From Fulvivirga ligni (GTDB taxonomy: Bacteria > Bacteroidota > Bacteroidia > Cytophagales > Cyclobacteriaceae): DNA of 64,000 bases. Both the position numbers and the translations under genes were made by a program. Below the pieces are notes generated by a model. That model was given only the letters and a program-made list of their open reading frames with translations. It was not told the origin of the DNA and did not search any database. Location: positions 3,701,001 to 3,765,000 of the forward strand of contig NZ_CP089979.1 of NCBI RefSeq assembly GCF_021389935.1, in the 5' to 3' direction. Shown piece by piece: positions 6,203 through 16,185 of the stretch. Numbering within the stretch: position 1 is the stretch's first letter; each line of letters opens with the position of its first letter.

Positions 6203-7399
6203 GTGGCGCCTTTAAAAAACTTTAAGCAAGAGCCGAATATTAAGATTATTCATCTAAGTATTTTATCAATACTTTATTTGGCTCTTGCTTTTTTCCTTTT
6301 TCACCAGTTAGGTGTAAAATATGTAAATGACACCCACCGCTATCTTGATTATGCCACTCGGCTCAAATCAGGATTTCAGATAGATGAGCATAACATCTGG
6401 TACATTTCTTATGTATTCTTCATTTACCTGCTAAGAGCCATTTCGGGCTCTGATAATTATCTGGTCATTATCCTGGCTCAATACTTTCTTGGTTGTTTGG
6501 CGTGTCTTAGTCTTTATCAAACAGCATATCGAATCTTTAACAACAGGTGGGCCGGTTTTACGGCAGCATTATTATATATTAGCTTCTATGAGGTGATGAG
6601 CTGGCATTCTTATTTATTGTGTGAGTCTCTTTATGTAAGCTTAGTTTGCTTCTCCCTGTTCTTCCTGAGTCATACTGTACATCGTAGATCAATCATTTCG
6701 GGGTGTCTTACAACAGTGTTCATAATATTAACATGTTTTGCTAAGCCCACAGGCATTGCATTAGTTGCTGCGGTTGTAGCCGTGCTGATTTATCAACTAT
6801 GGATAAAAGAGAAACGTAAGTATGTAAAATGGCCTCTTGCAATACTTGGTGCAGGGATAGTTTTGTATGCTGCCAACACCATGCTTTACACCTTCAACTT
6901 CATAGGAGATTATGAAACAGGTGAAATTATATATGCCATTGGTACTGTTCCATATCAGGAGGAGTTTAAGTATTTAATGATCACGGTGCCGAGTCACCTG
7001 AATTTGCCTGAAGATAACTGGCCGCCTCTTTTCCAAATGGTTTACTTCATAGTAGCAAATCTCTGGTATTTTCTAAAACTGTTTTTCATTAAAGCTTTTT
7101 ACTTTTTAGCTCATTTTAGGCCATATTGGTCGTGGAAACATAATATCTATGCAGTAGGTTTTCTAGGTGCAATCTACTTTTTTACATTTCGAGCCTTTAG
7201 CTATCAACTTCCGAAGAAGGTGATGATTTTTTGTTGTGTTTATGTTCTAGTACACATCATGAGCGTTGGTTTTACAACAGTAGATTGGGATGGTCGGTTT
7301 TTAATGCCGGTTCTACCTGTGCTTTTTATTCTGGCTTCTCAGCCCCTTATAGCCTTTATAAGTCGCTCTTTGCTAAGAGATAAGTCGGAAATGTTATAG
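6203..7399 (+). CDS. GT-C-type integral membrane glycosyltransferase-like protein
   Basis: The 398-residue protein has about ten hydrophobic helices. An acidic, aromatic loop after helix 1 (residues 37-50, with NDTHRYLDYA) is the expected catalytic loop of ArnT/PMT-like GT-C enzymes, which use polyprenyl-phosphate sugars. The family call rests on topology and this loop only, so acceptor and sugar are unknown. The start is a GTG at 6203, 9 bp after the upstream stop; no in-frame ATG lies near it. It is the last gene of the alaS-gatB run. A GTCGG motif is embedded in its last codons (7384-7388). Confidence 0.7.
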   Translation: MAPLKNFKQEPNIKIIHLSILSILYLALAFFLFHQLGVKYVNDTHRYLDYATRLKSGFQIDEHNIWYISYVFFIYLLRAISGSDNYLVIILAQYFLGCLACLSLYQTAYRIFNNRWAGFTAALLYISFYEVMSWHSYLLCESLYVSLVCFSLFFLSHTVHRRSIISGCLTTVFIILTCFAKPTGIALVAAVVAVLIYQLWIKEKRKYVKWPLAILGAGIVLYAANTMLYTFNFIGDYETGEIIYAIGTVPYQEEFKYLMITVPSHLNLPEDNWPPLFQMVYFIVANLWYFLKLFFIKAFYFLAHFRPYWSWKHNIYAVGFLGAIYFFTFRAFSYQLPKKVMIFCCVYVLVHIMSVGFTTVDWDGRFLMPVLPVLFILASQPLIAFISRSLLRDKSEML

Positions 7400-7415
7400 T
7401 CAAATCCTCAGCCTT

Positions 7416-7480
7416 GTCGGTAATGTGTAAGCCTTTGGCGGATTAGTTCTAATAATTGGTGGCAGGTCCTTTTACCTTTG
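7416..7480 (+). promoter_or_regulatory. Promoter A: two 21-bp-phased half-sites plus TACCTTTG -7 box
   Basis: Two half-sites of the form G(T/G)CGG-W4-GT(G/T) start at 7416 and 7437, exactly 21 bp apart. The second GGCGG ends 31 bp before a Bacteroidota -7 box TACCTTTG (7473-7480). No TTG lies at the expected -33 position, as expected of an activator-dependent promoter. The same arrangement recurs at 13087-13151 and 15069-15134. The -7 box ends 26 bp before the ATG of the 31-codon ORF at 7507. A further GTCGGAAAT at 7384 lies 32 bp upstream, inside the preceding gene. Confidence 0.65.
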
Positions 7481-7506
7481 TAATATCATTTAAAGTTTGG
7501 TTTATC

Positions 7507-7602
7507 ATGAAATTCAAATTTGATTTTCGAGAATTGCTAAAATCTATGGCTGTACTTTTAGTGCTTGTCATAGGATTGCTTGTTTCAAGGGGTGGGTTTT
7601 AA
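7507..7602 (+). CDS. Small single-helix membrane protein, 31 aa
   Basis: This short ORF opens with ATG at 7507 and encodes 31 residues: a mixed-charge N-terminus (MKFKFDFRELLKS) and a single hydrophobic segment of about 15 residues, ending SRGGF. It fits a small inner-membrane peptide. Support comes from context: a good TACCTTTG -7 box ends 26 bp upstream, with the two-half-site operator motif shared with the fadD-like and COG4315-type genes, and a strong inverted repeat follows it. I do not recognise a family. It could still be a chance ORF; translation is unproven. Confidence 0.45.
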   Translation: MKFKFDFRELLKSMAVLLVLVIGLLVSRGGF

Positions 7603-7699: not shown

Positions 7700-8470
7700 T
7701 TATGAATCTGCCCATTCCTTGAAATGAGATACCTTTTTCTTACTGATGATTATCTGATCAGCAGCTTCAGGATTTACTTTTATTAATAGACGGCCATTGA
7801 AATAGTTTTCAATTTCTTTTATGGCAGGTCTTGACATCAAGTATTGCCTGTTTATTCTGTAGAATCTATTGGGGTCTAGGTCATTTTCAAGCTGATCCAG
7901 GTAATAGTCCACCAGATATTCTTGTCCGCTATGGGTGACTATGAATGTGCCTTTTTCCTTCACATAGCAATAGGCTACATCACTGACATCTACCAGCACC
8001 ATTTTTTGCTTATAATTAACCAAGAAACTAGACTTATAACTTTTAGGAACGAATGAGCTTACTATAGCCTTTATTTCGTCCAATTCATAGGCCTTAGATT
8101 TGTTATGCTGCTTTAAAAATCTTTCTAAAGCACTATGGAGATCCTCCTTTTGTATTGGCTTAATGAGATAATCAATACCGTTGACCTTAATGGCCTGCAG
8201 CACATAATGCTCATAGGTAGAAGTAAATATAATGGGTATTTCTACAGTGATGCTTTTGAAAATATCGAAACTAACACCATCAGGAAGCTGAATATCCATG
8301 ATGACCAGGTCTGTTTTTGGGTCAGACTTAAAGTATTGAATAGCAGCACTTAAGGTTGAAATTTCCTTTTGAATGCGAAATTCGGCAAGGTCAGATTCTT
8401 GTAAAAGGGATTTTAAATGTTCCAGTTCATCTGGTTTGTCTTCAATAATGGTGAGGTTTATCTCATTCAT
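7700..8470 (-). CDS. LytTR-family response regulator
   Basis: The 256-residue protein has an N-terminal receiver domain (1-125) with the acidic pocket at E10/D11, phosphoacceptor D59 in VIMDIQLPDG, S/T84 region and K104 in LIKPI. A LytTR DNA-binding domain (about 148-250) carries the typical RINRQYLM segment. It should be phosphorylated by the histidine kinase encoded just upstream on the same strand (9-bp gap) and regulate transcription. Its targets are not evident. LytTR sites are usually direct repeats with about 21-bp spacing too, so this regulator must be considered as an alternative binder of the phased sites near 7416, 13066 and 15027. Confidence 0.92.
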   Translation of the reverse strand: MNEINLTIIEDKPDELEHLKSLLQESDLAEFRIQKEISTLSAAIQYFKSDPKTDLVIMDIQLPDGVSFDIFKSITVEIPIIFTSTYEHYVLQAIKVNGIDYLIKPIQKEDLHSALERFLKQHNKSKAYELDEIKAIVSSFVPKSYKSSFLVNYKQKMVLVDVSDVAYCYVKEKGTFIVTHSGQEYLVDYYLDQLENDLDPNRFYRINRQYLMSRPAIKEIENYFNGRLLIKVNPEAADQIIISKKKVSHFKEWADS

Positions 8471-8479
8471 CTCAGTAGG

Positions 8480-10975
8480 CTAAGGCTGGGTGGTTGTTGA
8501 GCTGGCAAAGATAACCTTTACAGTAGTTCCTGTACCTAATTCACTTGCAATTATTACCTGTGCCTTACTTCGCTCTGCAAATTCCATCACTAGTCTCATA
8601 CCCAGACCCACTCCGGACTCATTTTTGGTGCCTTTATCAGACGTTGCCTTCAGTTGATTAATTTCAGACAGCTTTTGAGCGGTCATTCCTACTCCTTTAT
8701 CTTGAATCATCACCGTGATGTTACCATTATCACTATAGGAGTTTATTTGAACAGAACTACCTGATTCTGAGAATTTAATAGCATTATTAATTAAGTTTCT
8801 GAAAATGGTTTTTAAGCTATTCTCATCGCCATTTAAATATATGTCAGGCTCCGTTTCAAACTCAAGGGATATCTGCTTGCTTTCGGCGTGTGCTTTAAAT
8901 AATTCAATAATTTCAATAAGAAGGTCATTGACAGAAATTACCGTCTTTGTAATTGGGAAACTGTTTTCTTTGTTTATTGACCATTGAAGCAAATTGTCTA
9001 GAAGCAACAGAGTATTTTGAGATGATCGCCTCATGTTATTGCTTAAATCCTGAATCAAATCAAGACGCTTTTGATTGGTATAGTGTAGCAGTATCCCGGA
9101 AATACTTATGAATTCCAGTACAAACCCGCGCAGATCGTGAGAGATAATGGAAAAGAACTTATTATTGATGGTTAAAGCCTGATCTAATTCTTCCTTTTGC
9201 TCTCGTAAAATTCTGTTTTTCTTTTGTCTATTATGTAGAAGATAGGCCATCAAAATGGCTATAAGTAATGCCATTATGAGAATAAGTGTAGTCCATAGTC
9301 TTCTGGATTTTTCTTTTTCTATTTTCGTTTCGAACGTAAGCTGTGCCTCCTTCTGTGCAAAAGCCAAGGAGTCTCGTTCTTTCTGAAAAGCATATTTGGC
9401 CTCAATACGACTTGTTTTTCTTATTACATCTTGATTATAAATGCTGTCTCGTAATGATAAGTGCAATGACAAGGCCTGATAAGCTTTTTGATGATAGCCT
9501 AAAGCAGAATATGCCTCCGAGAGCAGCTTATGACTTTTGCTTTCAAGCTCTTTCAACTGATTCTTTTGACAGTATTGAAGTGTCTTATTTAGATATGAAA
9601 TGGCTTTATTGTAAGCTTCTTTTTTGATATAATATTCTCCTAGTGCGCAGTGTATATCTGCTTGCAGTGCTGGAGCTACAATTTCTTTGGATAGGTCCAG
9701 GCCTTTTTCAAGTATATATTTGGAGGAATCAAGTTGACCAAGATGAATATATAGATTACTCAGATTAAGGTATATTTCAATGGTTTTGGTCTTATTACCT
9801 ACGCTTTCATTGAGTGTTAATGCATGTTCAAATGATTCCCTAGCTTTCTGAAGTTCTCCGGCTTCATCATAATAAGTGCCCAAGGCATTGTAAACTGAAA
9901 TTTCGCCATCAACATCATCGATAGCTTCTCTAATTTTTAATGACTTTAGGTAATAGCCGTATGCTGTTGAATCCTCTTTCCAATCTGTGAAAAGTAAGCC
10001 AAGGTTATAGTAGGTGGTTCCCAAACCTGTGGAATCGTTCATGTCTTGCCACATTTCTTCGGCTTTAAGGTAGTATTCCAGCGAAGAAGGGTAATCTGCC
10101 TTCTCATGAGCTATAATGGCCATATTACCTATGCAAAAAGCCATGGTTGGTTTGTTATTTAAAGATTTTGCCAGTTCGTAAGATTCATTAAAATCGCTGA
10201 GGGCTTTATCATATTCACCGAGCCTCCAGTGAGCTAATCCCATGTTGTTTAGAGCAATGGCCAAATAGGATGTATTATGCAGTCGTTTGGCTATTTGAGC
10301 AGCAGAAATAAAATTGTTTAGAGCATCTTGGAAATTCGCTTCTTTATAATAAATACCACCCAAATTAATCATACCAACAGCTACACCATTGGAATCAGCC
10401 TCATGAATTCTTTGGGTCAGAGCGGCCTCATAGTAATAAAGAGCTGAGTCTAGAATACCCATTCTGTAGTAGCTGATGCCCATATTATTGTAGATAGAGG
10501 CAAATTCACTGGAATCACGAGAGCCAAGAGCTAAACTATATGCCTGGTTAAAAATGTCAAGCGCTTGGTCAAAACTGCCTATCTTATTTTTTATATCACC
10601 TTTTTTAGATAGTGCTCTAACTACACCATTGGTATAGGAATTCTGCCTACAAAAGGAGAGTAATTCATCACATATATGCAAAGCTTCTTCAAAATTACCA
10701 GATTTCTGCTCGTATTTGGCTGTGAGCAAATGGGCAGTAACTAGCTCAGGCAGGTTATTTTCTTTAGAAGCAAGATTTATGGCTTGCTGATTAGTAGTAA
10801 GAAATCCTGTAGTATCGTTACCCAGGTATTCTGTGGATAAGGCGTTGAGTACATTTATTCTTACCGATGGCTTTAAATTCTGTTGTCTCAAAATATTCTC
10901 AAGAGAATCTACACGGTTCTGAGCATTACCTGCAGAATACACGATGAGAAAGTACAAGAGAAATAACCTTTTCAA
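8480..10975 (-). CDS. TPR-repeat sensor histidine kinase
   Basis: The 831-residue protein starts at a TTG codon (10975), justified because a signal peptide (residues 1-19, ending GNAQ) follows directly and no upstream ATG fits. About ten tetratricopeptide repeats fill residues 35-520. A coiled coil, a transmembrane helix (about 562-583), a HisKA-type dimerisation domain with phosphoacceptor H613 in SHDLRG, and a HATPase_c domain with DKGVGM and GVGLGM boxes follow. The periplasmic TPR domain is the likely sensor. The cognate LytTR regulator follows after 9 bp. This TPR-HK/LytTR pairing is common in Bacteroidota; the stimulus is unknown. Confidence 0.92.
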   Translation of the reverse strand: MKRLFLLYFLIVYSAGNAQNRVDSLENILRQQNLKPSVRINVLNALSTEYLGNDTTGFLTTNQQAINLASKENNLPELVTAHLLTAKYEQKSGNFEEALHICDELLSFCRQNSYTNGVVRALSKKGDIKNKIGSFDQALDIFNQAYSLALGSRDSSEFASIYNNMGISYYRMGILDSALYYYEAALTQRIHEADSNGVAVGMINLGGIYYKEANFQDALNNFISAAQIAKRLHNTSYLAIALNNMGLAHWRLGEYDKALSDFNESYELAKSLNNKPTMAFCIGNMAIIAHEKADYPSSLEYYLKAEEMWQDMNDSTGLGTTYYNLGLLFTDWKEDSTAYGYYLKSLKIREAIDDVDGEISVYNALGTYYDEAGELQKARESFEHALTLNESVGNKTKTIEIYLNLSNLYIHLGQLDSSKYILEKGLDLSKEIVAPALQADIHCALGEYYIKKEAYNKAISYLNKTLQYCQKNQLKELESKSHKLLSEAYSALGYHQKAYQALSLHLSLRDSIYNQDVIRKTSRIEAKYAFQKERDSLAFAQKEAQLTFETKIEKEKSRRLWTTLILIMALLIAILMAYLLHNRQKKNRILREQKEELDQALTINNKFFSIISHDLRGFVLEFISISGILLHYTNQKRLDLIQDLSNNMRRSSQNTLLLLDNLLQWSINKENSFPITKTVISVNDLLIEIIELFKAHAESKQISLEFETEPDIYLNGDENSLKTIFRNLINNAIKFSESGSSVQINSYSDNGNITVMIQDKGVGMTAQKLSEINQLKATSDKGTKNESGVGLGMRLVMEFAERSKAQVIIASELGTGTTVKVIFASSTTTQP

Positions 10976-11320: not shown

Positions 11321-12988
11321 ATGAAACCTACTACCCAGTATACTAAGAGTGGTCGTATAAGTATTGCATACCAGGTTTTTGGCTCAGGTACTACCGATTT
11401 GGTGTACATACCAGGGTGGGTGTCTAATATAGATTGGATGTGGTCATGCCCTGAGTTGGTGAGCTTCTTCATAGAACTTGGAAAAATGTTCCGCGTGGTG
11501 CTTTTTGATAAGCGAGGAACAGGACTTTCTGACCGCGTGGTGGAGTTATCTACCATAGAAGAGCGCATGGATGATATTCGGGCTGTAATGGATGCTATAG
11601 GTTCTCAAAAGGCCGTGCTTTTTGGTCACTCCGAAGGCGGATCTGTTTCAGCATTGTTTGCTGCCACTTACCCACATAGAACTATTGCCTTAATTACCTT
11701 TGGGGTTTTTGCAAAACGCAGATATTCAAAGGATTATCCATGGGCACCCACTGATGAAGAGCGTCAGGAAGTGTATGATATGATAGAAAACCGCTGGGGC
11801 TCAGGTGAAATGTATCTTGAGTCGTTAGCGCCGTCAAAAGCGAAGGATAAGGTTTTCATGGAATGGTTGGCTAATTATTTCAGATCAGGAGCTAGCCCAA
11901 GTGCGGCCTACGTGCTCACCAAAATGAACACCGAAGTAGACATCATTGATATTTTAAGTTCTATAAAAGTACCTACCTTATTAATGCAGCGAACGCATGA
12001 TGTTGACGTGAAGATCGAGGAAGGTAGATTTATAGCGGAACGAATTAAAGGCTCAAAATTCGTGGAATTTGATGGTAGTGATCACCTCTTCTGGGCCGGA
12101 AATACCAATGAAATATTAGATGAGATCAAAAACTTTATTTCTACAGTGACCCCTGTAGAAACATACGAGGAAAGGTTATTTACCATAGTGGCTGCTCGTA
12201 TTGTAACATCTCAAATGGTGCACACTGATATACATAGTGTTGTTGCTCAAAAGGTAAAACAATACCGTGGTAGATTGATAGGTTTCGATGCCGAGTCATT
12301 CATTGCTACTTTTGAAGGACCGAGTAAGGCTGCTCATTGTAGTATAGATTTGGTAGATCTAATGAGTAATGTTGATATACAACTAGCAGTAGGTATTCAT
12401 ATTAAGGAGGTGGCTGTGAATGAAGCTCATTTTATTAATGGTGAAACGCAAGATTTTATATCCACTATACTTGAGGCAGCTGAACCTAATCAAATACTTA
12501 TTACCCAGGCGGTTAAATCTCTTTTGTCTGGAGCGGGGCTTGGTTTTACGCCCTTTGTAAATACAATGTATGATGCCACTGATCAGCAGCTATCGTTGTA
12601 CATGCTTACAGATCATTTAAGTCCTAGAGAAGCTACTTATCACAAAGCTAAATCACCGCAAAACGACTCATTTTTGGAAAACGTATTGCAAAGTATAGAG
12701 TCGCACATGACTAATGATCAGTTTGGTGTAGAAATGTTATGCAGGGAGGTGGGCATTAGTGAGAGACAGCTTCAGCGAAAGCTCAAAGCCATTACCAATA
12801 AGTCTCCTAATCAGCTTATTTCTTCTGTACGACTTCATCGCGCTAAGGAGATGATGCTTATTGAAAAAGACAATATTTCAGAGATCGCCTTTAAAACAGG
12901 ATTCTCAAATCCATCTTACTTTTCTAAATGCTTTAAGAAGGAGTTCGGTCAAAGTCCTTCAGAGCTTCTTCATCAATTTGAGAATTAG
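11321..12988 (+). CDS. Alpha/beta-hydrolase - cyclase-like - AraC HTH fusion regulator
   Basis: From ATG 11321 the protein has 555 residues. Residues 1-~285 are an alpha/beta hydrolase with nucleophile elbow GHSEGGS (S104), acid D227 or D229 and H255, so the triad looks intact. Residues ~295-435 resemble the class III cyclase-like domain that follows such hydrolases, but the metal-binding FTD motif is lost (FTIV), so cyclase activity is unlikely. Residues ~445-550 are an AraC/XylS two-HTH domain. In-frame TTG (11204) and ATG (11219) starts exist, but family proteins begin near MKPTTQYTKSG. Probably a one-component regulator sensing or hydrolysing an ester-like ligand; its targets may be the phased half-sites at 7416, 13066 and 15027. 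Confidence 0.85.
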   Translation: MKPTTQYTKSGRISIAYQVFGSGTTDLVYIPGWVSNIDWMWSCPELVSFFIELGKMFRVVLFDKRGTGLSDRVVELSTIEERMDDIRAVMDAIGSQKAVLFGHSEGGSVSALFAATYPHRTIALITFGVFAKRRYSKDYPWAPTDEERQEVYDMIENRWGSGEMYLESLAPSKAKDKVFMEWLANYFRSGASPSAAYVLTKMNTEVDIIDILSSIKVPTLLMQRTHDVDVKIEEGRFIAERIKGSKFVEFDGSDHLFWAGNTNEILDEIKNFISTVTPVETYEERLFTIVAARIVTSQMVHTDIHSVVAQKVKQYRGRLIGFDAESFIATFEGPSKAAHCSIDLVDLMSNVDIQLAVGIHIKEVAVNEAHFINGETQDFISTILEAAEPNQILITQAVKSLLSGAGLGFTPFVNTMYDATDQQLSLYMLTDHLSPREATYHKAKSPQNDSFLENVLQSIESHMTNDQFGVEMLCREVGISERQLQRKLKAITNKSPNQLISSVRLHRAKEMMLIEKDNISEIAFKTGFSNPSYFSKCFKKEFGQSPSELLHQFEN

Positions 12989-13043: not shown

Positions 13044-13065
13044 GTGCCATATATTTCAGGTGGAT

Positions 13066-13151
13066 GTCGGTTTAGTGATAGGTGATGTCGGAAATATGAG
13101 TGCATTTGGCGGTTTTGTGCTAAAGTAGGATATAAGTCTATTGTAATTTTG
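13066..13151 (+). promoter_or_regulatory. Promoter B: three 21-bp-phased half-sites plus TAATTTTG -7 box
   Basis: Three direct half-sites start at 13066, 13087 and 13108, exactly 21 bp apart. They read GTCGG-TTTA-GTG-ATA, GTCGG-AAAT-ATG-AGT and GGCGG-TTTT-GTG-CTA. The last GGCGG ends 31 bp before the -7 box TAATTTTG (13144-13151). There is no -33 TTG at 19-20 bp. A half-site overlapping the -33 region, with others upstream at 21 bp, is the geometry of AraC-type activation. The acyl-CoA ligase starts at 13242, leaving a leader of roughly 85 bases. Confidence 0.7.
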
Positions 13152-13241: not shown

Positions 13242-14936
13242 ATGCAGACTGAAACATTAAGTTTTTCAAAAACCCAAACATGGAGACGCCATTATGCAGA
13301 TGGTGTTCCATTTAAAATTAACCCATTAGCTTACCATTCACTAGTTGATCTTTTTGAACAAAGTATCAATAAGTATCGTCTACTGCCGGCCTATGAATGC
13401 ATGGGCACCTGTATTACTTTCGGTCAGCTGGATTTGCTGTCGCGCAATTTTGCAGCTTACCTTCAGAATGATTTGGAGCTGAGCCCCGGAACCAAAGTAG
13501 CCATTCAGATGCCTAATCTTCTACAATACCCTATAGCACTGTTTGGGGTACTTAGAGCAGGCATGGTAGTGGTAAATACAAATCCGCTATACACTCCACG
13601 AGAAATGAAACATCAATTTGTGGATTCTGAAACCGAAGTGGTAATTATCCTGGCCAATTTTGCTCATAATCTGGAAGAGATTATAAAGGATACTGCTATC
13701 AAACATGTCATCATAACAGAATTGGGCGATCAGCTGAGAGGTGTTAAAAGGGTGATAGTGAATAAGGTAGTGAAGCATGTGAAGAAAATGGTGCCTAAAT
13801 ACAGCCTGCCAGGAGCTGTATCGTTTAACAAAGCTTTAAAGTGTGGTGAGCAACATTCCTTTCAGGCTGTAAGTATTAAAGGAAAAGATACCGCCTTCTT
13901 ACAATACACAGGCGGAACTACCGGGATTTCAAAAGGGGCCGTGCTAAGCCACACCAATGTAGTTGCTAATATTGAGCAATTTACTGCCTGGATCACTTCA
14001 TCAAAGCTTAGAGAGGGTAAAGAGATTATTATTACGGCGTTGCCGTTGTATCATATATTGGCACTGGTGGCCAACTGTCTGTCGATGCTTAAGATGGGGG
14101 CCAAGAACGTGCTGATACCAAACCCCAGAGACATGAAAGGATTTGTGAAAGAATTGAAAAAGCATCCTTTTTCTATTTTTTCAGGAGTGAACACACTCTA
14201 TAATGGCCTGCTCAATGAACCTGATTTCCATAAGGTTGACTTTTCAAACCTAAAGTTGTGCGGCTCTGGTGGTATGGCTGTGCAGACCGTTACGGCAGAG
14301 AGGTGGAAGAAAGTGACCAATGTGCCAATTTCTGAAGGTTACGGTCTTACTGAAACTTCACCCATACTTACTTTTAATGTGCTGGTAGATGGTAAAGAAC
14401 GAATCGGAACAATCGGTATTCCATTGCCAAGCACGTCATTAAAAATAGCAGATGATAATGAGCAGGAAGTGGTAGATGGCACTCCTGGTGAAATATATGC
14501 CAAAGGACCTCAGGTAATGCATGAATATTTTAACAGACCCGACGAAACTTCTAAGGTTTTTACTGGTGACGGATGGTTCAAAACCGGTGACATAGGAGTG
14601 AAAGATGAGGATGGTTTTTTCAGAATTGTAGATAGAAAAAAGGAGATGATTTTGGTTTCAGGGTTTAACGTTTACCCTAATGAAATTGAGAATATTGTAT
14701 CTCAACATGCAAAAGTAGCAGAGGTGGCAGCCATAGGTGTGCACGATGAAAAGTCTACTGAAGCGGTGAAAATATTTGTGGTTAAAAGTGATGCGTCTCT
14801 CACAAAAGAGGAGATCCTGGAACATTGTAGAAAGAATCTTACTGCATATAAAGTACCTAAACATATTGAGTTTAGAGATACATTGCCTAAGTCAAACGTA
14901 GGAAAAATACTGCGTCGCATGCTAAAAGAAGAATAG
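13242..14936 (+). CDS. Long-chain-fatty-acid--CoA ligase (AMP-binding)
   Basis: The 564-residue protein is a full-length ANL-superfamily ligase. The P-loop-like motif YTGGTTGISKGA begins at Y222. A YGLTETSP adenine-binding motif lies near 367, WFKTGDIG near 446, the hinge DRKKEMILVSG just after, and the C-terminal catalytic lysine sits in NVGKILRR near 557. It is closest to FadD-type enzymes, which activate fatty acids to acyl-CoA using ATP at the cytoplasmic face of the membrane. It stands alone between two terminators and has its own operator-bearing promoter (13066-13151). Chain-length preference cannot be read from sequence. Confidence 0.92.
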   Translation: MQTETLSFSKTQTWRRHYADGVPFKINPLAYHSLVDLFEQSINKYRLLPAYECMGTCITFGQLDLLSRNFAAYLQNDLELSPGTKVAIQMPNLLQYPIALFGVLRAGMVVVNTNPLYTPREMKHQFVDSETEVVIILANFAHNLEEIIKDTAIKHVIITELGDQLRGVKRVIVNKVVKHVKKMVPKYSLPGAVSFNKALKCGEQHSFQAVSIKGKDTAFLQYTGGTTGISKGAVLSHTNVVANIEQFTAWITSSKLREGKEIIITALPLYHILALVANCLSMLKMGAKNVLIPNPRDMKGFVKELKKHPFSIFSGVNTLYNGLLNEPDFHKVDFSNLKLCGSGGMAVQTVTAERWKKVTNVPISEGYGLTETSPILTFNVLVDGKERIGTIGIPLPSTSLKIADDNEQEVVDGTPGEIYAKGPQVMHEYFNRPDETSKVFTGDGWFKTGDIGVKDEDGFFRIVDRKKEMILVSGFNVYPNEIENIVSQHAKVAEVAAIGVHDEKSTEAVKIFVVKSDASLTKEEILEHCRKNLTAYKVPKHIEFRDTLPKSNVGKILRRMLKEE

Positions 14937-15016: not shown

Positions 15017-15026
15017 ATGTTTACAT

Positions 15027-15134
15027 GTCGGAAAAGTGATATCATGTCTGATTTGTGCTAGATATTATGTCGGATATTTAAGCATTTTGGGCGGAATTGT
15101 GCTATCAAGAGGGCCTAATGTCATCTTACCTTTG
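15027..15134 (+). promoter_or_regulatory. Promoter C: four half-sites plus TACCTTTG -7 box
   Basis: Half-sites start at 15027 (GTCGG-AAAA-GTG-ATA), 15046 (GTCTG-ATTT-GTG-CTA), 15069 (GTCGG-ATAT-TTA-AGC) and 15090 (GGCGG-AATT-GTG-CTA). The last pair is 21 bp apart and the first and third are 42 bp apart, keeping helical phase. The second is two bases off register. The last GGCGG ends 32 bp before TACCTTTG (15127-15134). No -33 TTG is present. It should drive the lipoprotein gene at 15376 through an unusually long leader. Confidence 0.65.
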
Positions 15135-15375
15135 TATCAATGAAATTAACCTGTGGATGATTCATATATGTGCGATTGATCTGAATTAATGGTATATATT
15201 AGATTGATAATCAGGTATTTGAGAATAAAGTGATTATTGAACCTTAAGATCATTTTATTTCAAAAATAGTCACCTGATAAAGCACTGGAATAAGTTTTTA
15301 CTTTCTACAACTCTTCAGTGCTGCAAAAGCAGATTATCATTTCATACAAACAAAATTTATTAAAACCATTTACAA
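15135..15375 (+). other. Long untranslated leader of the COG4315-type lipoprotein gene
   Basis: About 240 bases lie between promoter C and the ATG at 15376 with no convincing ORF (only a six-codon ATGAAATTAACC... reading frame at 15141). A possible hairpin pairs AGCACTG (15281-15287) with CAGTGCT (15316-15322) across a 28-base loop. I recognise no known riboswitch. A second unseen promoter nearer the gene is possible. Confidence 0.3.
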
Positions 15376-16185
15376 ATGAACAAGTATTTTAAGCATTTAG
15401 GTATTATGTTTTTGGCTTTCGTAGCCATTAGTGTCATGAGCTGTCAGGATGACGAGGGTGATGAGCCAGATCTTAAGTTTAATGTTAAAGTGATCAATGA
15501 CTCAGCCTTTGGAAACATTATGGTAAACCAGAAGAATGAGACTATTTATTTCTTTGCTGGTGACATTTCAGGTGCAAGTAACTGTAATGGTGGTTGCGCA
15601 GATGCATGGCCTCCAGTAACAGGAAGTATTGACGATCTTGAGCTTGGCACTTCTTTAAGCATGGCTGATTTCAGCATGATTACCAGAGATGGTGGAGAGA
15701 AGCAACTAGCTTATAAAGGATGGCCTCTATACTATTTTGCTCCGGATAATGATGGAGTTCTGGAAACAAGTGCCAGCATAGCAGGTGATGGCCGTGGTGG
15801 CGTATTCTACATAGCTAAGCCAGATTATTCAATCATGCTAGGAAAACAATCAGTAAAAGATGGTGAAGACGCTGTTACTTATTTAGTAGATGGTGACGGA
15901 CTCACTTTATATGACTTTGTTAATGATGAAGAAAACACCAGCAACTGCTCTGGCGGATGTGCTAATGCATGGCCTCCATTTAACCCGGCAGGAACTTTAA
16001 TCATTCCTTCAACACTATCAGCTAGTGACTTTGATACATTCTTAAGAGGCGATGATCTTGGCTATCAGCTTACTTACAAAGGTCTGCCACTATATTACTT
16101 TACTACAGATGCTGAAGTAAGAGGAGTAGTAGAAGGTGAAGGCGGAGGAAACGGCAACTTCTTCGTAGTGAAGCCTGTGTTATAA
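15376..16185 (+). CDS. Lipoprotein with two COG4315-type secreted repeats
   Basis: The 269-residue protein has a lipoprotein signal (lipobox VMSC, C23). Two tandem copies of the 'secreted repeat of unknown function' follow (about residues 35-150 and 155-268). Each copy carries a Cys pair in a S-NC-GGCA-AWPP block and a downstream YKG-PLYYF segment, the latter followed by D or T-D. It is exported and probably membrane-anchored. The biochemical role of the family is not established. It is a monocistronic gene under promoter C and ends at a strong terminator. The conserved Cys pair in each repeat suggests a disulfide. Confidence 0.82.
   Translation: MNKYFKHLGIMFLAFVAISVMSCQDDEGDEPDLKFNVKVINDSAFGNIMVNQKNETIYFFAGDISGASNCNGGCADAWPPVTGSIDDLELGTSLSMADFSMITRDGGEKQLAYKGWPLYYFAPDNDGVLETSASIAGDGRGGVFYIAKPDYSIMLGKQSVKDGEDAVTYLVDGDGLTLYDFVNDEENTSNCSGGCANAWPPFNPAGTLIIPSTLSASDFDTFLRGDDLGYQLTYKGLPLYYFTTDAEVRGVVEGEGGGNGNFFVVKPVL

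Follow-up and report, generated by a model that had tools for sequence, protein, structure and literature searches.

Activators of the AraC/XylS family, such as AraC at I1-I2, XylS and RhaS, bind tandem direct half-sites about 21 bp apart, with the proximal one next to the -35 element. The system described here lies in a 64,000-nucleotide stretch of the Fulvivirga ligni genome (NZ_CP089979.1, positions 3,701,001 to 3,765,000; hereafter the window). It resembles these activators in its two-HTH domain, in half-sites made of two blocks about a turn apart and repeated at ~21-bp spacing, and in a proximal half-site that adjoins the -35/-33 region. It is unlike them in its sensor, an alpha/beta-hydrolase plus a cyclase-like domain instead of a cupin, and in its arrays, which can contain as many as four half-sites at 19-22-21 spacing and go with a Bacteroidetes -7 box. 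The sensor recalls mycobacterial LipJ (Rv1900c; PDB 1ybt and 1ybu), a hydrolase joined to a class III cyclase, and the hydrolase-fold receptors RsbQ and plant KAI2, D14 and HTL, which appear among the sequence and fold matches listed for its N-terminal domain. Unlike those receptors, which act via partner proteins, the hydrolase domain here is fused to a DNA-binding domain.

The proposed cognate regulator, encoded at 11321..12988 on the forward strand and present as one full-length copy in the genome containing the window (G000), comprises a LipJ-like alpha/beta-hydrolase, a degenerate class III cyclase-like domain and an AraC-type HTH. The C-terminal two-HTH domain matched Pfam HTH_18 with 84.4 bits at residues 473-550 (cut-off 33.6) and HTH_AraC with 66.4 bits (cut-off 26.6), as in the AraC/XylS class, and the tandem direct repeats that would be its sites also follow that class, with the proximal one next to the -35/-33 region. 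This domain was highly conserved in 32 orthologues, with both recognition-helix stretches nearly invariant (L054 was dropped from A3 because of a stop in its translation). The N-terminal part matched Pfam Abhydrolase_1/6 and Hydrolase_4 and is a predicted hydrolase; the triad S104 (in GHSEGG), D227/D229 and H255 was invariant in the 32 orthologues, as in hydrolase-fold receptors. An AlphaFold2 model had a mean pLDDT of 78.8 and a pTM of 0.72. The best 50 matches listed by a fold search were hydrolases only, including RsbQ and the plant HTL/KAI2 receptors, so the search adds nothing on the middle domain. That domain was poorly conserved. Residues 306-406 matched the Rv1900c cyclase domain (1ybt) and residues 3-410 the NCBIfam LipJ model (NF058673), the latter at 252.6 bits, far below the cut-off of 800. 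Unlike LipJ, the regulator carries an added AraC domain, and the two metal-binding Asp positions of an active class III cyclase are not conserved: the second aligned to Glu in the window protein and varied among orthologues, and all 32 rows lacked an Asp where the class motif would place the first one, a position that lies ahead of the start of the 1ybt alignment.

A preliminary description of the window had placed nine half-sites ahead of three promoters, and all nine were present where it put them. Ahead of the acyl-CoA ligase gene (promoter 2), the half-sites (GTCGG/GGCGG) begin at 13066, 13087 and 13108, and the claimed 21-bp phase was measured as gaps of 21 and 21. Those of promoter 1 start at 7416 and 7437 (gap 21), and promoter 3 carries GTCGG/GTCTG/GTCGG/GGCGG at 15027, 15046, 15069 and 15090 (gaps 19, 23 and 21). 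A recount agreed that GTG continues six of the nine. The distance from the last GGCGG to the TAnnTTTG box, given as 31-32 nt, was 31, 31 and 32 nt in the three promoters, none of which has a TTG at -33, again as described; in the 7416 promoter a TTG is present about 4 nt further downstream. The description had drawn the half-site too short, as the matrix from relatives gave a consensus of ~16 bp, TGTCGGAAATGTkmTA. It had also overlooked a tenth half-site at 7383-7398 (AGTCGGAAATGTTATA).

When all window positions were scored on both strands with the relatives-trained matrix, this tenth half-site was rank 1 (score 22.6) and the nine others were ranks 2-8, 11 and 30. All promoter features lie on the forward strand. 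In promoter 1, the tenth half-site stands 32 bp ahead of the next one at 7415..7430 (score 17.7, rank 7), which is followed 21 bp on by the proximal half-site at 7436..7451 (19.5, rank 5) and by the -7 box TACCTTTG at 7473..7480, 31 nt behind GGCGG. The sole short ATG ORF behind this promoter, also on the forward strand, is a putative coding sequence of 31 aa at 7507..7602 (MKFKFDFRELLKSMAVLLVLVIGLLVSRGGF); the product is hydrophobic, a 48-aa form begins at a TTG within the promoter, and a scan found no terminator behind the ORF. Promoter 2 has distal, middle and proximal half-sites at 13065..13080 (18.4, rank 6), 13086..13101 (13.5, rank 11) and 13107..13122 (20.4, rank 4), and its -7 box TAATTTTG at 13144..13151 lies 31 nt behind GGCGG. 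The four half-sites of promoter 3 lie at 15026..15041 (21.7, rank 2), 19 bp on at 15045..15060 (16.2, rank 8), 23 bp on at 15068..15083 (weak; 7.2, rank 30) and 21 bp on at 15089..15104 (proximal; 21.2, rank 3), with the -7 box TACCTTTG at 15127..15134, 32 nt behind GGCGG.

The matrix was trained without any window sequence. Loci encoding relatives of the 11321-12988 protein were fetched from genomes (35 loci), and 33 were used, L056 and L058 being left out as partial genes. TGTCGG served as the seed for half-sites within 400 nt behind the AraC gene, which gave a matrix of 20 columns from 60 sites in 22 loci. On both strands the matrix had 64 matches in the 13.2 kb behind the gene, a count that is partly circular because this was the training region, and 153 in the remaining 511 kb, compared with 2-6 and 97-145 matches, respectively, for five matrices with shuffled columns. 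The pattern of the preliminary description formed four pairs at 21 bp on both strands of the window versus none in each of 40 first-order Markov resamplings. The relatives-only matrix likewise found four pairs, three with a -7 box at 31-32, and none in each of 40 resamplings. Genome-wide, the bare pattern TGTCGG-N15-KGGCGG with one mismatch was not enriched over its reversed form (23 vs 22 matches) and was dropped as a search tool that does not discriminate. Exact matches numbered five, every one with TAnnTTTG at 31-32. The signal sits in the exact matches and in a longer model, not in the one-mismatch pattern. The longer model, R1, is a sequence-only covariance model built from 15 relatives' promoters with no window sequence. 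When run on the 6.52-Mb genome, R1 returned the window's three promoters as its top three matches (E 3.8e-10, 9.8e-9 and 1.2e-8 in order of rank). By position, the matched stretches are 7414-7481, 13084-13151 and 15066-15136; R1 was also run on the window alone with filters off. The motif, which the preliminary description had expected to be commoner ahead of promoters than by chance and conserved in relatives, proved to be both.

In relatives, arrays typically consisted of four half-sites spaced 19-22-21, and the -7 box came 32 nt later (e.g., L028, L030, L033, L036, L037, L053, L108, L111 and L113); other arrays had two or three half-sites. Across the 33 loci, TAnnTTTG was found within 28-35 nt of 24 of the 32 qualifying 21-bp pairs, and all 24 boxes stood at exactly 31 or 32; the box was no part of the matrix that picked the pairs. 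The Flavobacterium psychrophilum -7 box extends from -12 to -5 (PMC9723704). On that numbering, the proximal half-site spans roughly -50 to -34.

In 19 of the 33 loci the AraC orthologue was followed by a 21-bp pair at a distance of 44-225 nt, and in 14 of those 19 the pair came with a TAnnTTTG box. The other 14 of the 33 loci had no qualifying pair directly behind the gene, and the idea that the proximal pair always stands there was false. Because possession of the AraC gene was the criterion for choosing the loci, finding it in 33/33 is no evidence. The next most widespread protein family nearby, a TPR sensor kinase, occurred in 12/33 loci, with no other family exceeding 12, and the genes driven by the pairs differed between loci; for these reasons the association of AraC gene and operator is informative despite the selection.

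Operator and protein also occurred together across genomes. In a sample of 241 genomes from the order, the motif (R1 E<=0.001) was found in 4/4 genomes with the fusion protein (E<=1e-100) and in 1/237 without it (Fisher p 3.6e-8, not corrected for kinship), and the three positives other than the window genome contribute no row to R1. The one protein-less genome, G076 (E 7.7e-5), showed one weak half-site only, and its match was taken as chance. None of the same-family genomes listed in this sample encoded the regulator at E<=1e-100; its distribution is sporadic, possibly through horizontal transfer. In a sample of 395 genomes from the class, the full protein was found solely in G000. R1 matched G000 and five genomes without the protein, four of them weakly (E 3.3e-4 to 4.3e-4); the fifth, G593, had a good site (E 1.7e-6) ahead of a Lipoprotein_15 gene and no fusion protein at E<=1e-90 in a fragmented assembly. 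Both samples were run with stricter filters. With laxer filters in the family of G049, which overlaps the order sample, the motif occurred in 2/2 genomes with the protein and 0/16 without. Genomes encoding the fusion protein had an R1 match in 23 of 25 cases and lacked one in two, a test that left out ten of the 35 loci (L025, L028, L029, L038, L045, L046, L050, L055, L056 and L058). Among the 11 protein-carrying genomes that gave R1 no row, nine had a match, two of these (L040 and L048) being close to training rows. A hydrolase-AraC protein of 398 aa without the middle cyclase-like domain is encoded at G544:C1:1058242 and 1066888 (L080 and L081), and R1 had no match in that genome.

Synteny and co-occurrence support the preliminary proposal that the putative reader is the AraC-type fusion rather than the neighbouring LytTR protein; with high probability the fusion is the right regulator, and it would bind these arrays. 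We consider it very probable that the arrays are operators of the 11321-12988 hydrolase/AraC fusion and that this protein most likely is a ligand-switched activator at promoters without a -33 box. The two conserved blocks of each half-site, separated by about one turn of the helix, would each be read by one HTH of the AraC domain, and the two or four half-sites in tandem would all face the same side of the DNA. The proximal half-site would end where a -33 element would otherwise be, with TAnnTTTG 31-32 nt on, and from there the regulator would most likely contact RNA polymerase. The switch would be a small molecule that is bound, and perhaps cleaved, by the hydrolase domain.

The true reader could instead be another AraC-type protein, or several with similar half-site preference. 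The genome has ~50 other AraC-type HTH matches, and a single related half-site, TGTCGG/TGACGG-TTTTGTTCAATTT, directly follows a different AraC-type ORF and precedes similar NAD-binding genes in L071 (G000:C1:75920, weak) and L083 (G372); this type of half-site may serve a different AraC protein. However, the synteny and co-occurrence are with the hydrolase fusion, and an unlinked regulator would have to have been inherited together with it every time, which makes this reading improbable. There is a similarly small chance that the fusion binds the arrays and mainly represses. Multi-site arrays can block polymerase, and AraC itself both activates and represses. Against this, the proximal site stands next to -33, its distance from the -7 box is constant at 31-32 nt and the three promoters have no -33 TTG, the anatomy of an activator-dependent promoter. 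The LytTR response regulator (7700..8470, reverse strand; Pfam LytTR 75 bits), acting with the TPR histidine kinase at 8480-10975, was rejected as a very improbable reader: its gene has an array on either side, LytTR proteins recognise similarly spaced tandem repeats and the 12 loci with a TPR kinase match the arrangement in the window, but its relatives (E<=1e-4) occurred in 5/36 loci and 3/24 pair-carrying loci, meaning that the operator does not travel with the LytTR gene, the sole close orthologue (L026, 66%) was in a locus without a pair, and the half-site does not fit what we take to be the LytTR consensus. The counts for pair-carrying loci rest on the 33-locus set, with L077-L079 excluded as loci whose array status was assigned by hand; L077 (G204) and L025, each 12848 bases long, probably represent one contig.

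For the fusion protein as an activator, a more specific reading can be offered tentatively, as possible rather than probable. It may be a one-component system, receptor and transcription factor in one protein. Its hydrolase-fold sensor, predicted to be catalytically intact, would detect an ester, lactone or lipid that diffuses, and perhaps cleave it, in the manner of D14/KAI2 or RsbQ, and the protein would itself turn on genes for antagonism and the cell surface. Coupling or dimerisation would be the role of the degenerate cyclase domain. If so, the genes under its control would include those for contractile injection systems and homologues of pore-forming proteins, for BspA-like surface proteins and lipoproteins, and for small secreted TGPxAKN-repeat proteins. 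No description of the hydrolase-AraC sensor type was found in the literature searched. The present results link this sensor type to a precise operator and promoter layout, which gives a testable regulon. In relatives, contractile-injection operons and surface and antagonism genes would be placed under a hydrolase-domain sensor, and the signal that turns them on would become open to direct experiment.

The putative regulon is wider than the preliminary description proposed, taking in secreted, surface and injection-machine genes in this bacterium and in scattered relatives. A regulon called local there comprised eight promoters spread over the genome at E<=0.001: the three of the window and five others in G000. 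These stand at 4923235, ahead of a Thiol_cytolysin homologue; 3525377, ahead of a 436-aa protein without a Pfam match; 5391698, an AMP-binding gene of the adenylation type; 3317741, a gene with a RicinB-type domain; and 5483850, a lipoprotein gene with a sub-threshold collagen-like match. In Bacteroidota, CDC-like proteins can have antibacterial activity (PMC11169675). Weaker promoters were found at 5488178 (beta/gamma-crystallin; an exact match to TGTCGG-N15-KGGCGG), 2275293 and 75920.

The earlier focus on the acyl-CoA ligase did not hold in relatives. The protein behind promoter 2 (13242..14936, forward strand) is a long-chain acyl-CoA ligase of the FadD type (Pfam AMP-binding, 286.7 bits; NCBIfam PRK08974 FadD, 807.9 bits, cut-off 884), and no close FadD homologue turned up in the neighbourhood of the AraC gene across 36 loci; the single match had 22% identity, and FadD was ruled out as a conserved target. 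The lipoprotein gene behind promoter 3 (15376..16185, forward strand; Lipoprotein_15, Pfam PF03640, 117.2 bits) is a predicted target conserved in relatives; in L031, L042, L078 and L082 homologues follow the same operator. Other genes driven in relatives encoded SprB-type lipoproteins, DUF285 and BspA-type surface proteins, and Pvc16 proteins (L047, L106 and L108). At L047:9810-17429 a contractile injection system operon lies directly behind the AraC gene and operator, with the Pvc16 gene first and then genes for sheath, three tube proteins, CIS_tube, spike/hub and gp25; L048 and L113 appear similar by sequence.

Small secreted proteins of ~50-125 aa with up to three TGPxAKN(RKPW) repeats, which had no Pfam or NCBIfam match when scanned, were also encoded behind arrays in relatives. 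As constant partners of the operator they were ruled out: A2 (TGPxAKN) matches occurred in 14/28 genomes, and 10 of 11 inspected matched loci had no upstream half-site, among them the two of the window genome (G000:C1:1777774 and 4151809). Nine relative loci do have a TGPxAKN gene behind an array (L030, L033, L036, L037, L038, L039, L040, L053 and L079), the copy in L036 being interrupted by a stop.
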